The notes under the pieces were generated by a model. That model saw only the letters and a program-made list of their open reading frames with translations. It searched no databases and had not been told where the DNA came from. From assembly GCA_009693985.1 (NCBI GenBank), contig SHWE01000005.1, positions 1-61,871 of the forward strand: 61,871 nt of DNA, read 5' to 3'. The translations under genes were made by a program, and so were the position numbers. Origin of the DNA: Alphaproteobacteria bacterium. Lineage in GTDB: Bacteria > Pseudomonadota > Alphaproteobacteria > Micropepsales > Micropepsaceae. Shown here piece by piece: positions 50,274 to 57,151 of the stretch; the stretch's first letter is position 1; every line of letters starts with the position of its first letter.

Positions 50274-51241
50274 GGCCGCGGCGCCGCCTTCGAGAAGAAC
50301 TCCCAGATCGCGACGGGAGCATCGAGATCGCCGGTCGCGCGCCCTAGCCCACCCCAGTTTTGAGGCGTGCGCGTCGGCACCGTATGGCCGCCGCCATGCA
50401 CCGCATAGACGACGACGCTCGGCTTGCCGGGGGCGCTCCACAGCATTTCCTCGACATAGGTCGGATCGCTGGTGTTCTTGTGTGGCAAACGCTTGACCTG
50501 GGCCGCGCCCGTCACGCCGTTCAGCTTCGCCCAATACTCTCCGGATTCTTTCGAGGAATGGACCGGCCCCGCATTGAAGGAGCCGAGCATCACATTGCCG
50601 CCCGCGAACGGATTGATCGGGTCCAATGTGCCGTTGATGATCATCACCGGCATGGCGGCGCCCGACGGCGTGCAGGCGAGGTTCTCGGGCCGCGGGAGGC
50701 TGGCGGAAATCGCGGCGACGGCGGCAAATTGGTTGGCGCGCTCCAGCGCGAAGCGGAAGCCGAGCTGTCCGCCATTCGACCAACCCGCCGAGAAGACGCG
50801 CTTGCGGTCGATGCCGTGGTCGGCGACCTCTTTGGCGATCATGGCTTCGACGAAGCTGTAATCGTCGATATTCATGCGGCGTGCCGGCTGGGGCGAACCT
50901 TTGCGGCAATCGTTCCACGTCGCCTGATAGCCGTCCGGGTAGATGACGATAAAGTCGTCGCGGTCGGCCAAGAGCTCGAATTCGTTCGCCGTCACCTCGC
51001 GCATCCCTTCGCCGTCGCCGCCCGAGCCGTGGAAGACGAACAGCAGCGGTGCGTTCGGTTTCAGACTCTTGGGCGTGTAGACGAGGAAGCTGCGCTCCAT
51101 GCCTTTGACGGCGAGCGTCTGGCGCGCGAGCGTGCCGGCAGGCTTCGGCTCCGCCGCACGCGCGGCGAAGTGAAAAGAAATGGCCGGAATCGCGAGCGCG
51201 GCTGCAACCAAAATGCCCGCCCGTAATTTCGTTCGATTCAT
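50270..51241 (-). CDS. LpqC/PHB-depolymerase-family secreted esterase
   Basis: Exported alpha/beta hydrolase of 323 residues. Signal peptide near 1-29 (AGILVAAALAIPAISFHFAA). The oxyanion segment FVFHGSGGDGEGM lies near 68-80, and the nucleophile motif AGWSNGGQ near 152-159 (Ser155). The late His is in VHGGGHTVPT near 281-290. Relatives are feruloyl esterases, polyhydroxybutyrate depolymerases and acetyl-xylan esterases. The sequence ends shortly after the catalytic His, with no carbohydrate-binding or lining domain. Confidence 0.87.
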   Translation of the reverse strand: MNRTKLRAGILVAAALAIPAISFHFAARAAEPKPAGTLARQTLAVKGMERSFLVYTPKSLKPNAPLLFVFHGSGGDGEGMREVTANEFELLADRDDFIVIYPDGYQATWNDCRKGSPQPARRMNIDDYSFVEAMIAKEVADHGIDRKRVFSAGWSNGGQLGFRFALERANQFAAVAAISASLPRPENLACTPSGAAMPVMIINGTLDPINPFAGGNVMLGSFNAGPVHSSKESGEYWAKLNGVTGAAQVKRLPHKNTSDPTYVEEMLWSAPGKPSVVVYAVHGGGHTVPTRTPQNWGGLGRATGDLDAPVAIWEFFSKAAPRP

Positions 51242-51305
51242 TTCATGCCCCCGGTTCGCCCTATGCGCTCTTTATATCAGAGGCGCGGAAGAAGTCAGGT
51301 CGGCA

Positions 51306-51362
51306 ATGTGTCGGGAATGCGGCGAACGATGCGTCTTCTACTCAATTCGCCTTTGTCCTTAA
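51306..51362 (+). other. Cys-rich 18-codon ORF, possible leader peptide
   Basis: ATG to TAA, product MCRECGERCVFYSIRLCP with four cysteines in 18 residues. It lies in the spacer 76 bp before the truncated L,D-transpeptidase start. An AGG lies 6 nt upstream. It may be a sensing leader or a chance frame. Confidence 0.25.
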
Positions 51363-51437
51363 TAGGATGACGGAACTTCGGATCGCCCTGAGCAGTTCTC
51401 GTCATTGATAAATGTCAAATTTGCCTCGGGGTCTGTC

Positions 51438-51818
51438 ATGCGCTCGCGCAGTTTCTCTCGCCTTCCCTCTGGTCCGAAACCGCGCTTTTTCGCGTCCACC
51501 ATGTTGACGGGCGCGGTCGTCATCGCTTTCTCGTCGGTCGCATTCTATGGCTTGGCCGCGCAGACGCTGGATGGACCGCCGCGCAGCTCCGTCACCCTCA
51601 AGCTTAGCGATGCCAGCCCCCTTGGCGATGCGCTGGCCGGCAAGAAGACGCTGCAAGTAGGGGGTTACGCGGTCGATGTCGCGCGGCTGCGGCACGTCTA
51701 TGAAACGCGCGAATTCCGCCCCATCTGGACACGCTTTTTCGGCGCCGGCGATGCGCGGCGTGCGATGGATGCGCTTTCCCATGGGCGGCGGAGCCCTTGT
51801 CACCGCAATCGGCTCTAG
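51438..51818 (+). pseudogene. Truncated YcbB-type L,D-transpeptidase (N-terminal stump)
   Basis: A 126-codon frame. The N-terminus is basic with a membrane anchor (MLTGAVVIAFSSVAFYGLAA near 22-41), then the start of the L,D-transpeptidase scaffold domain: VARLRHVYETREFRPIWT near 80-97. Complete YcbB-type enzymes are 450-600 residues with peptidoglycan-binding and YkuD catalytic domains. Here the frame leaves family sequence after about residue 115 (RRAMDALSHG) and ends in the next gene. The catalytic domain with the SHGC motif is absent. In many proteobacteria ycbB is followed by ycbK, as here, so this is a deletion scar. Confidence 0.7.
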
Positions 51819-52326
51819 TCTAGCAGTCCCAGCATTGGCGCAGATCGCCGCTCCCGCCGTCATCGGCATCAAAGACACCAATTGCCGCAGCCTTTTCCTT
51901 CAGGCGCTCAACACCGGCGAGAAAATCAGCTGCGATTATTGGGTGGACGGCAATTACGTCCCCGACGCGCTGGCCGGCATCGACCGCGTGCTGCGCGACC
52001 ACCGCACCGGCGACATCGCCAGGATCGAGCCCAAGCTTCTCGACCAGCTCCATACGTTGCAGCAACGCCTAGAGTCACGCTCAGGCTTCCAGGTGATCTC
52101 CGGTTACCGTTCTCCGGCGACCAATGCGAAGCTGCACGAGAAATCCTCCGGCGTCGCCAGCAAGAGCCTGCACATGCTGGGTCAGGCCATGGACATCCGC
52201 GTGCCGGGCTGCGCGCTGGACCATCTGCATAACAGCGCGCTCGCCATGAAAGCCGGCGGCGTCGGCTATTACCCGAAATCGAATTTCGTGCATGTGGACA
52301 TCGGTCGGGTCCGCCGCTGGGCGTGA
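51769..52326 (+). CDS. DUF882/YcbK-like M15 family peptidase, signal region shortened
   Basis: Predicted periplasmic D-Ala-D-Ala-type peptidase of 185 residues. Zinc-ligand motifs are SLHMLGQAMDIR near 132-143 (HxxxxxxD) and NFVHVDIG near 172-179; GYRSPATNAKLHEKSSG near 109-125 is the family core. The mature domain looks complete. The start MRFPMGGGALVTAIG retains the hydrophobic part of a signal peptide, but the twin-arginine pair expected just before it (as in RRKFL) is not there, because the gene's 5' end joins the truncated ycbB. ATG 51781 is an alternative start. Export and function may be impaired. Confidence 0.75.
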   Translation: MRFPMGGGALVTAIGSSLAVPALAQIAAPAVIGIKDTNCRSLFLQALNTGEKISCDYWVDGNYVPDALAGIDRVLRDHRTGDIARIEPKLLDQLHTLQQRLESRSGFQVISGYRSPATNAKLHEKSSGVASKSLHMLGQAMDIRVPGCALDHLHNSALAMKAGGVGYYPKSNFVHVDIGRVRRWA

Positions 52327-53355
52327 TTACGGCCGCGCACTCAGCGCCTTGATCGTGGGGCTGTTGTCGAGCGCATTCGGCTCGACAGGATCGGCGCGCA
52401 GCTTTAAGTGGGCGAAGACCGTCCGCGCTCCATCGACGATGCTTTCGTCGATGGGGCGAGGATAGGCCGAGCCCTCGCGCCGCGACGGCAGGATCGTCAG
52501 GCTGACCGACTGCACCACATTGCCGCCGATCACCAGGATGCGGTCTCTCGCATCGTCCATCTTCACCACGATGTCGCAATGGGTGGGCGCGAACTGGCCA
52601 ACATCCATGCGGCGGTCTTCGAGATTGCGATAATCGGTGGACCCGCGCGAATTGCACAGAAGGTCGCCCGGCTCGATCGCAACCTCGCCGGCATCATGGG
52701 CCTCATAGGCGGCTTGCGGCGCCGTCCCGTCGCGCGCGGCAATGGCCTGATCGATATAGTTGCGATGCGCGATCGATCGCTCGAACTGCACCATGTCGCC
52801 CAAGCCCGCTTCGCACATCACCCATGAGACGAAAGCCGCCGACCAGGGCTGCACCCAATTCACCGCATTCCCGCCGGGGCTCGCCCAGGCGCGGTTCTGC
52901 TGATTGATGACGCGCGCACCGTCCGGTGTCGCCGACCAATAGCCGGCAATTGTCGTGTCCAGCCGGTCGTCATATTCGAGCTGTCCGAGCTTGGGGAATT
53001 GCCGCGCGATGCGTGGGCTCGCGAGCTTCGGATTGGCGGCGTCGGGCACGAGACCGCCAGGCAAAAGCTGCGTCTCGATCTTGGTCGCATCGATGGTCTG
53101 GAAACCGAAATAGGCCCATTCCTGCACCGCGACATCGACGATGCGCCGGCGGGCATCCTTCGTCGGCCCGATACGGCAGAGATTCTGATAGACCGCGATG
53201 CGCCCGCGTTCACCAAGCACGCGTTCCGAGGGCGGAATGACGTCGAAGGATTCGCGCGGCAGACGCTCCATCTCGTCTTCGGCGCGCAAGCTGGGCGCAC
53301 TGCCGAGAAGCCCCGTAAGGAGCAGCGTCAATATCCTATGCGCGTAGGAACGCAC
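52327..53355 (-). CDS. DUF2272-domain secreted protein
   Basis: Exported protein of 342 residues (signal peptide AHRILTLLLTGLLGSAPSLR near 5-24). The DUF2272 core is WSAAFVSWVMCEAGLG near 172-187, followed by FERSIAHRNYIDQAI and a His/Asp late motif (THCDIVVKMDD near 260). This resembles papain-like CHAP-type amidases with catalytic Cys/His. The Cys in SWVMCEAG would sit near the helix start, but the exact catalytic role is not known. It lies 9 nt downstream of ydbL, the last gene of that operon. Its strand also runs toward the ycbK-like gene. Confidence 0.78.
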   Translation of the reverse strand: MRSYAHRILTLLLTGLLGSAPSLRAEDEMERLPRESFDVIPPSERVLGERGRIAVYQNLCRIGPTKDARRRIVDVAVQEWAYFGFQTIDATKIETQLLPGGLVPDAANPKLASPRIARQFPKLGQLEYDDRLDTTIAGYWSATPDGARVINQQNRAWASPGGNAVNWVQPWSAAFVSWVMCEAGLGDMVQFERSIAHRNYIDQAIAARDGTAPQAAYEAHDAGEVAIEPGDLLCNSRGSTDYRNLEDRRMDVGQFAPTHCDIVVKMDDARDRILVIGGNVVQSVSLTILPSRREGSAYPRPIDESIVDGARTVFAHLKLRADPVEPNALDNSPTIKALSARP

Positions 53356-53364
53356 GCCCGTGCT

Positions 53365-53754
53365 CTATTTGCGCACCCAGTTTCCATTCGGCAGCCGGAA
53401 GAATTGACCGGGCGGTATCTGGCCGAAAAGCTGTTGCGCGGTTGCCTGTCCGGCGACCTCGGGGGTGACGCCGGTGCGCGCGGCGATGTCGCGGAAGACA
53501 GTCGCGCGGCCCGCATTGATTTCGTTCACCGCCGCGGCGATACCAGGATTGGGCGGTGTGACGAAGCCGAGATATCCATCGCCCTGCTCTCCCACCAGTC
53601 CTTGCGCCTTGGCGCCGTCGACGGCGGCCTTGGCGCCTGCCGCTTGGGCAAAAGCGGGAGCCGGATTTGCGATTGCGACAGCGGCCAGCGAAAGGCACGC
53701 GACGAGCGCATAGAAGAATTTCCATTTGCGAGATGCCGAAGACATCGTTTGCAT
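53365..53754 (-). CDS. ydbL: YdbL-family periplasmic protein (DUF1318)
   Basis: Secreted protein of 129 residues. The signal peptide ends near AFAQA (residue 38). The DUF1318 core GLVGEQGDGYLGFVTPP is near 53-69, with the conserved end FFRLPNGNWVRK. YdbL acts with YdbH and YnbE in lipid transport across the periplasm. ATG 53754 has GAAGG 7 nt upstream; a TTG 15 nt earlier is rejected. It is 15 nt downstream of ynbE. Confidence 0.88.
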   Translation of the reverse strand: MQTMSSASRKWKFFYALVACLSLAAVAIANPAPAFAQAAGAKAAVDGAKAQGLVGEQGDGYLGFVTPPNPGIAAAVNEINAGRATVFRDIAARTGVTPEVAGQATAQQLFGQIPPGQFFRLPNGNWVRK

Positions 53755-53769
53755 CCTCTTACCTTCCAA

Positions 53770-53967
53770 TTAGAACAGATTTGGATTCGACGAGATCAGG
53801 GTTTGGACTTCCTGGTCGAGCCGTACCCGCACATCGGCGTCGAGCCGCGCATAGATATTGATGGGCGCCACTTCGACGCGCACGGTCGGCGTACAGCCGC
53901 CTGTCAACAGAGCGGCAAATACGCTCGCGCCCATCACGCAATTCCGCACCCTGAAATCCATCCGCAT
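53770..53967 (-). CDS. ynbE: YnbE-family outer-membrane lipoprotein
   Basis: Small lipoprotein of 65 residues with lipobox LTGGC, lipidated Cys25. The mature peptide PTVRVEVAPINIYARLDADV is typical of YnbE. In E. coli YnbE stacks beta strands with YdbH to connect inner and outer membrane. It sits between ydbH and ydbL as in enterobacteria, which confirms both neighbours. Confidence 0.88.
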   Translation of the reverse strand: MRMDFRVRNCVMGASVFAALLTGGCTPTVRVEVAPINIYARLDADVRVRLDQEVQTLISSNPNLF

Positions 53968-53995
53968 TTGCTCCCTCTGGCTCGCGCAACCCCGC

Positions 53996-56900
53996 TCAAG
54001 GCGCGGGCGCCGAACCGCCGAAATAGGATTTGAGAAGCTCGTCTAAATTGATCGACGCGTCCAGTGTCAGGTCGACGGGCGTACCCTTCGGCAGCGGCAG
54101 CGGCGCGTTGAACGCTTCGCCGCGCAAGAGTTGAACAACGCCGACACGCGTTTCAAGAGCGACCATCGGATCGTTGCGGCCCTTGATGCGGAATATCATG
54201 CCGAGGCGGCCCATCGGCCGGCTGCTGATCTCGCCTTCCAGCACGTCAAAAGCCATGTTCTCGAGCGCCTGATAGGCGAAGTCCTGAACCGCATTGGGCG
54301 CCACCTGATTCGGATCGCCGACACCGACGCCGCCGGTGAGCGCCTCGCGGCGAATCGACAGACGCCCGGCCCCGATCGCGGCGACACGGCCATTGTCGAA
54401 GCGCAAACCCTCGGGACTTAGCGTGAACGGCACGTTGCCGCCGATCTTGGCATTGGAGGTCACACGGCCGGTCAGACCAGCCGCCTCGATCAAGGGTTCG
54501 ACGTTGAGATTTTCAAGATGCACAACCCCGCGCGTGGTCGATGCGCTGGCGAAATTATAGCTCAGCGGATCGAGCACAAGACGCCCTCCCGCGACGGCGG
54601 CGCTTGCCGAATCCAGACGGAAACTCTCCGGCGTGTAGGTGAATTGCGCCGCGATGTTTTCAATCGGAACGAACGTATCGATCCGCTGGGCGGTGATGGA
54701 TTGGGCGGGCGCGACGGCAAGGGGCAGAAGCGAATCCAATTTGAGATTGAAGCTTACGCCCCGGACGCCGCCGGCCGCGCTTTGCAGGCCGAGCCCAGTG
54801 CTGACAACACGGCCATCGCTGGTGATGCCATCCTTGGACCAGCCGAGACGTCCGGTGAAACTGGCCATCCCCGCGACGCGCGTCCCGAACATGCCGAGGA
54901 ACGGCACGATATCGGCGGGCTGCAATTGGTTGGGCGCGAAGACGAGACCTTGCGCGTCGATGGCGGCGCTGCCCGTGCCCGTCTGCATCGCATGGCGGAG
55001 CGCGACATTGGCAAGCCTGCGTTCGCCGGTGGTGACGGTAACATCGCCACGCCATTCGTCATTGGCCAGGTTCATCGCGCCGGTGGCGGAGACCGGCAGA
55101 TAGCGCGCGGGCGCAAGAAGGTCGGAGAGCTCCGCCTGCGCGATCTCGACGCGGCCGTTCTGAAGGCCTGCGCCTTGCCCCGCGATCTGCAAGCGCCCTT
55201 CGCCATTGGCGAGCGCAGACCCAGCGGTTTCAAATTTCGCCGCGACATCGTCGAGACGCGCTTCGATCCGCCATCCTCTGGGCTCGCCGACGAACAAAGG
55301 CTGCGGAGGCGCGCCACAGATTTGGGCCGACGCGTCGCGCAGATAGACGACTCCACCATTGAGCAAGGAGGCGAACCGGACATCGGCGCATCCGGCGAGA
55401 TCGAATGCGGTGCGAGTCCCCGCGCTTTGCAATCTGCCGCGGCCGGACATTTGCAGGCCCGGAAGATAGTCAAGATCGAGCGCGGTCTCGAATTCGGTTT
55501 GCGCATCGAAATTGCCTCCGCCGTAGCGATAGGAGGTCAGCGCCAAGCGGGTTGGGGGAAGTCCGCCGCCTCGAATGTCGAGGCCGAGCGCGCCCGTCAT
55601 ATCGGCGCCCGCCATATTAAGAAGCGGCCCTTCGCGTGGGCTGAGCGTGATCTTCGCACCCCCCATGCCGTCGAGAACAATGGGCGTGGCGCTCGTCACA
55701 ATTGTCGCCGCGTCGCTGCGGGCGATTTCGAGCGAAGCTGTTTGCAGCGTCACGGTTTCGAGCGCCGTAACAATGGAAGCGGCAAGCGCGGCATCGCCGC
55801 TGGCGGTCGCGTAAGGCAAAGAGATCGCGCGGGGAATGTTGGCGCGTCCCGAAAGCGAGAGGCGCGCCGTGCCTTGTGTGCTTCCATCGCGAAGCGTGCC
55901 GTTCGCGGACGCCTCGACGCGGAATGCCTGGCTCGTAATTGTGCCATCCTTCAAACGATAGCGCAGGCCGGCGCCGTTCAAGACCGTGCGGGGCGTCCCT
56001 TCAAGCGACCATCCGGCTTGCGTGATGTTGGCGGTGAGCGTCGGCAGCGTGGTCTCGGCGGTCAGCCGCGCCAGCGATGCCTCTCCGCTGCCGGCATTCA
56101 CGACTTCGACGCGCGACGTGCCGTTGGCAGCGATGCGCAAAGCGCCATCGGCGAATTGGAGTTCGGCGGCTGCAATATCTATCCGCTCGGTAAAGCGCGC
56201 GGCCGTGATCACGCCGCCAAAATTGGCACCGGCAAGTTGCACATCGAGATTGCCCCGGGCGCGCACATTGACGCGACCAGCGGCGAAATCCCCTTCGACA
56301 CCTTCCACCGCGACACGCATTTCGGACGACGCGGCGGCCAGCGTGGCGGCAATCGCGGCGGCGGAGCGCAGCGTCAAATTTCCGGCGGCGAAAGCGAAGC
56401 GCGTGGAATTGCCGGCCCCTTGCCATTTCAATCCGCGAATATCGGCGGCGAGTTCGGCACCCTTGGCGCTGTTGCCTTGATAGGTGAGAGAATCGAGTTT
56501 CAACGTCGCCGAGCCGTCCAAGAATTCGCCGCGCGCGTCCGCCTTCAGCGTACCGGCGGAGAAAGCCCCGGCGATACCCTCGCCTTGCAGACGGCCCGGC
56601 TGCAAACTCGCATCGACATGGAGGACGCGGCGATTGGCGATTTCCAGATCGGCGGTGAAGCGCACATTGCCGTTCGGTGTGACCAGAAGAACATCGCCCT
56701 TTTCGATCGAGACAGCCGGGCCCTCGCCTTCCGGCGCCTGTGCCAATGCTTCGTCGATCAGCGCCTGCAACGAACCGAAGCTGAGTTTCTCCCCATCATA
56801 ACCGACGCGTAGGAACGGACGCACCAGCTTCACCGCGGCGATCCCCGGCGTCATGCCGTCATTGAGATAGACGAACGTCACCTCCATGCTCTCGGCGGTG

Positions 56901-57151
56901 AAATCGGGCTGATCCACGGTTCCTGCGCGCACGCGGGCGAGAAAGCCACCCATGCTGAGCGCGCTGAAGCTCACTTCGGAGTCGATACCGCGTGTCCTGA
57001 GATAATTCTGCGCGATCAGCGCGACGACGGAATTGCGCTGGATGTAGAGCGCCACCGCGGCGGCGAGCAGCAGGGCAACAACACTTGCGAAGATGATTGC
57101 TAAAATCGTCCAGAAGCCGAAACGTCGTTTCGCGGCCGTTGGCGCATTCAT
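53996..57151 (-). CDS. ydbH: YdbH-family intermembrane lipid-transport protein (AsmA-like)
   Basis: Inner-membrane-anchored periplasmic beta-groove protein of 1051 residues, larger than E. coli YdbH (about 880). The single N-terminal membrane span is near 13-36. The rest is long repetitive beta structure (many G-x-hydrophobic repeats) ending in the conserved C-terminal YdbH domain (PLPKGTPVDLTLDASINLDE then LLKSYFGG). ATG 57151 overlaps the upstream TPP-enzyme stop (ATGA). The open frame running further upstream is not coding. YdbH, TamB and YhdP act redundantly to move phospholipids to the outer membrane in E. coli. Confidence 0.88.
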   Translation of the reverse strand: MNAPTAAKRRFGFWTILAIIFASVVALLLAAAVALYIQRNSVVALIAQNYLRTRGIDSEVSFSALSMGGFLARVRAGTVDQPDFTAESMEVTFVYLNDGMTPGIAAVKLVRPFLRVGYDGEKLSFGSLQALIDEALAQAPEGEGPAVSIEKGDVLLVTPNGNVRFTADLEIANRRVLHVDASLQPGRLQGEGIAGAFSAGTLKADARGEFLDGSATLKLDSLTYQGNSAKGAELAADIRGLKWQGAGNSTRFAFAAGNLTLRSAAAIAATLAAASSEMRVAVEGVEGDFAAGRVNVRARGNLDVQLAGANFGGVITAARFTERIDIAAAELQFADGALRIAANGTSRVEVVNAGSGEASLARLTAETTLPTLTANITQAGWSLEGTPRTVLNGAGLRYRLKDGTITSQAFRVEASANGTLRDGSTQGTARLSLSGRANIPRAISLPYATASGDAALAASIVTALETVTLQTASLEIARSDAATIVTSATPIVLDGMGGAKITLSPREGPLLNMAGADMTGALGLDIRGGGLPPTRLALTSYRYGGGNFDAQTEFETALDLDYLPGLQMSGRGRLQSAGTRTAFDLAGCADVRFASLLNGGVVYLRDASAQICGAPPQPLFVGEPRGWRIEARLDDVAAKFETAGSALANGEGRLQIAGQGAGLQNGRVEIAQAELSDLLAPARYLPVSATGAMNLANDEWRGDVTVTTGERRLANVALRHAMQTGTGSAAIDAQGLVFAPNQLQPADIVPFLGMFGTRVAGMASFTGRLGWSKDGITSDGRVVSTGLGLQSAAGGVRGVSFNLKLDSLLPLAVAPAQSITAQRIDTFVPIENIAAQFTYTPESFRLDSASAAVAGGRLVLDPLSYNFASASTTRGVVHLENLNVEPLIEAAGLTGRVTSNAKIGGNVPFTLSPEGLRFDNGRVAAIGAGRLSIRREALTGGVGVGDPNQVAPNAVQDFAYQALENMAFDVLEGEISSRPMGRLGMIFRIKGRNDPMVALETRVGVVQLLRGEAFNAPLPLPKGTPVDLTLDASINLDELLKSYFGGSAPAP

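Follow-up and report, generated by a model that had tools for sequence, protein, structure and literature searches.

One question raised by this locus is whether two short, overlapping frames are what remains of an ldtD (ycbB) and mepK (ycbK) pair joined by a deletion, or whether their arrangement has some other origin. The stretch of DNA analysed, here called the window, comprises all 61,871 bases of contig C23, which belongs to a draft genome of 2.0 Mb in 68 contigs that is 63.6% complete. Both frames lie on the + strand and differ by one base, the first running from an ATG at 51438 to a stop at 51818 (126 aa), the other ending at 52326. The arrangement is, as argued below, probably a real deletion scar produced by ordinary gene decay, with misassembly unlikely, and as an interpretation the scar is well supported. 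The features on which the argument turns are the following.

51438..51779, + strand: ldtD/ycbB stump of about 114 codons, comprising a signal or anchor segment and the opening of the scaffold domain; matched by an N-terminal YcbB profile over residues 72-115, and also ranked first by the full-length profile.
51774..51786, + strand: probable deletion junction, best estimate 51780, from the end of the YcbB profile match at residue 115 and a codon-usage change-point at 51780.
51780..51818, + strand: tail of the stump frame past the junction to its stop, out of frame with mepK, from the translation; the coding score is negative in the last interval scored, 51753-51812.
51784..52326, + strand: mepK/ycbK (DUF882, M15 family) without a twin-arginine start, the Pfam domain beginning at 51880; from PF05951, NF053624 and 33 of 33 conserved positions.
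51769..51858, + strand: possible new signal peptide, MRFPMGGGALVTAIGSSLAVPALAQ and the following residues, starting at 51769 or 51781; from the translation and start context, its function being presumed.

YcbB is built of scaffold, peptidoglycan-binding and catalytic parts (PMC6478713), of which only the scaffold opening remains here, and no YkuD catalytic domain with an active-site cysteine was found at the locus. A sequence-only reading had taken the first frame for a YcbB anchor and scaffold opening that then leaves the family, and profile searches bear this out. With a profile built from 24 YcbB N-termini the stump scores 19-20 bits and ranks first of the 523 frames of the window, the next frame reaching 4.9 bits and the best of 2000 shuffles 6.5 bits; with a full-length profile, built from 89 YcbB-type proteins and less clear for this frame, the score is a weak 9.3 bits, but it too ranks first of 523 (next frame, 1.7 bits) and lies above 2000 shuffles. 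The N-terminal match takes in the scaffold opening LxxFYxxRxxxPxW of LdtD/YcbB and stops at residue 115 (ALSH), where relatives run on towards a [DE]GL motif. Profiles were needed because BLAST against 61 genomes and all the mepK loci collected matched only the stump itself; since the stump holds only about 45 informative residues, it is unsurprising that BLAST found nothing else and that no Pfam or NCBIfam model matches it. Judged by its sequence, then, the first frame is a YcbB-type N-terminus, and we infer that it is non-functional.

The point at which the family sequence ends is also the point at which codon usage, with that of neighbouring genes as reference, switches from the stump frame to the mepK frame (51780). 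Beyond this junction the mepK side picks up partway through the signal-peptide core GGGALVTAIGSSLAVPALAQ. Repeats within 51200-52450 were checked as recombination sites, and none stood out at the junction. Neither the locus nor the assembled genome contains the remainder of the transpeptidase, and the crosslinker gene has clearly been lost at this locus.

MepK is an endopeptidase specific for 3-3 crosslinks, supplying an activity that is needed when such links dominate (PMC12729407). The second frame matches PF05951 at 192 bits over profile positions 5-153 of 153, that is, over the full DUF882 domain, and passes the MepK equivalog cut-off of NF053624 (202 versus 185 bits). When it is aligned with 94 homologues, none of the 33 columns whose conservation is about 93% or higher is altered in it; these include H130, D137 and H170 of the frame, and the M15 motif residues so retained include likely zinc ligands. 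Among solved structures, a search by sequence gave no match to this protein. A twin-arginine motif is present in 93 of 101 other MepK homologues by a crude pattern, several of whose misses are truncated frames or failures of the pattern, and it stands directly before the signal-peptide core, as in RRCVLRLAGAALVTGVASPALA of locus L190, whereas in the window it is missing before GGGALVTAIGSSLAVPALAQ. The domain span and the missing RR motif together confirm the earlier description of a complete DUF882 domain that has lost its twin-arginine start. By sequence the protein lacks nothing from the signal core to its end; the missing signal bears on export and leaves the family assignment of the catalytic domain unchanged.

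What the intact arrangement looked like can be approached through relatives. One sister genus in the same family carries mepK, with 48-61% identity, and 16 of its loci were read (L164 included), two of which (L192 and L194) end inside the transpeptidase gene at contig ends, leaving 14 usable. A YcbB-type gene lies directly upstream of mepK in all 14 of these same-family loci with enough flank, which, with the twin-arginine motif missing from the window, supports the proposal that a ycbB-ycbK pair has been collapsed. More widely, a transpeptidase directly precedes mepK in 67 of the 90 loci with enough flank. The distance between the points joined in the window is 1.35-1.45 kb in 11 of the 14 same-family loci, and 1.15-1.18 kb in the three with a shorter transpeptidase. 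An N-terminal stump alone was found upstream of mepK in none of the 90 loci, and the same short gene, the presence of which in relatives would speak against a deletion, in none of 60 other genomes.

Among these loci the YcbB-type transpeptidases beside mepK in L197 (3573-5043), L200 (3380-4736) and L201 (1383-2694) are about 90 residues shorter than other family members, the missing residues apparently coming from the peptidoglycan-binding region. In Microbulbifer loci, including L045, L049, L055 and L072, two or three tandem YcbB-type transpeptidase genes stand upstream of mepK.

We consider it likely that ldtD and mepK were joined when the source DNA lost about 1.35-1.45 kb in one deletion. 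The parent allele is here reconstructed from relatives of other species, with which MepK shares about 50-65% identity. Such an event would place codon ~114 of ldtD directly before the hydrophobic core of the MepK signal peptide, with the two reading frames out of register.

The alternative that survives best is that the living population keeps an intact ldtD-mepK pair and that the short version is a chimeric read, a product of a minority strain or a scaffolding join. A draft genome in 68 contigs that is 64% complete leaves room for such an artefact, as does codon usage that is gene-like on both sides up to the junction. However, in intact relatives the words common to the two corresponding ends measure only 4-9 nt, far below what an assembler needs as overlap, so that, from the way in which assemblers work, typical assembly collapse is unlikely; moreover, the contig crosses the junction without a break or a run of N, and no remainder of the transpeptidase occurs elsewhere in the assembly. 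We regard an artefact as unlikely, though a chimeric read or a minority strain might still account for the short version. It is very improbable that the stump frame works as a small membrane protein in its own right, or as a leader whose translation is coupled to that of mepK: it is an open frame whose codon usage resembles that of genes as far as the junction, and its stop falls just past the possible mepK starts, but no similar gene exists in the 60 relatives besides its own genome, or in the 90 mepK loci. Least probable of all is that a frameshift, or a one-base sequence error at the junction, makes of both frames a single membrane-anchored MepK, for although they overlap one base apart, a +1 shift would be required, inspection of the overlap by eye showed no slippery site, the mepK signal-peptide core would fall in mid-protein, and no such fusion occurs among the mepK loci read.

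If a deletion is accepted, the fate of MepK depends on where its translation begins. Possible starts are 51769 (beginning MRFPMGGGALVTAIGSSLAVPALAQ), 51781, or an in-frame ATG at 51676 with AGGGGG upstream, and a frame starting at either of the first two would begin with a Sec-like signal. MepK may be pictured in two ways, either as poorly expressed and cytoplasmic or as exported with the help of a weak, Sec-like signal that the junction has created, and its mislocalisation is possible. A stronger proposal is that MepK is now exported through Sec instead of Tat, the deletion having built it a new signal peptide (MRFPM + GGGALVTAIGSSLAVPALAQ) of which a part comes from ldtD DNA; the cell would then have an active 3-3 endopeptidase no longer coupled to its transpeptidase partner. 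This we think improbable. Were the new signal to work, the locus would show on a small scale how a deletion can, in nature, move an enzyme to another export route; were it not to work, it would be a case of routine pseudogene formation.

Of the consequence expected for the cell wall, the loss of a crosslinker gene holds for the locus, but an organism-wide effect is at most a possibility. The evidence does not allow the claim that the organism has lost 3-3 crosslinking, because the genome is 64% complete and three of six genus mates carry a separate YcbB-type gene, and such a gene of this organism may lie in the missing third of its genome. The suggested search for other YkuD proteins yielded one in the assembly, on contig C3, which the YcbB profile does not match; no other YcbB-type piece was found there with a profile that finds the gene in the three genus mates. 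In the other three mates, one of them 96% complete, no YcbB-type gene was detected, and mepK was not detectable in any of the six, from which erosion of ldtD-mepK looks common in the genus. The window may capture the pair as it disappears, a loss that other members of the genus seem to have undergone already, and would document one step in this erosion in a lineage whose relatives miss one or both genes. The absence of mepK from all six mates nevertheless counts against the deletion and makes the history of the pair at this place less certain.

The gap between an esterase gene and a thiamine-pyrophosphate enzyme gene varies within the genus (window 51241-57148; L159 6718-6816; L160 5641-7890). 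In G001 it spans about 0.1 kb, in G005 it spans 2.2 kb and contains other genes, and in the window it spans 5.9 kb and holds ldtD'-mepK-DUF2272-ydbL-ynbE-ydbH. A second DUF2272 gene (L114, G000:C8:14204-15127), situated at another place in the genome, is 54% identical to that at 52327-53355 of the window.

Among the closest known systems are the ldtD-mepK pairs of the sister genus (e.g. L190 and L193), which have the same gene order and orientation and a MepK about 55-61% identical to that of the window, but are intact and stand in other neighbourhoods. The flanking genes of the window were found beside no ldtD-mepK pair in genus or sister genus, so that neither an empty nor an intact site is directly readable. 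LdtD (YcbB) is an L,D-transpeptidase of the YkuD type that also has scaffold and peptidoglycan-binding domains; the stump shares with it the N-terminal signal or anchor, the scaffold opening and the position before mepK, but nothing of the scaffold follows this opening, and the peptidoglycan-binding, catalytic and C-terminal parts are missing. With MepK (YcbK), an L,D-endopeptidase of the DUF882/Peptidase_M15_2 family, the second frame shares the full domain, all strongly conserved positions and a score above the curated equivalog cut-off; unlike known MepK, it is without the twin-arginine start and takes its new start context from ldtD DNA.
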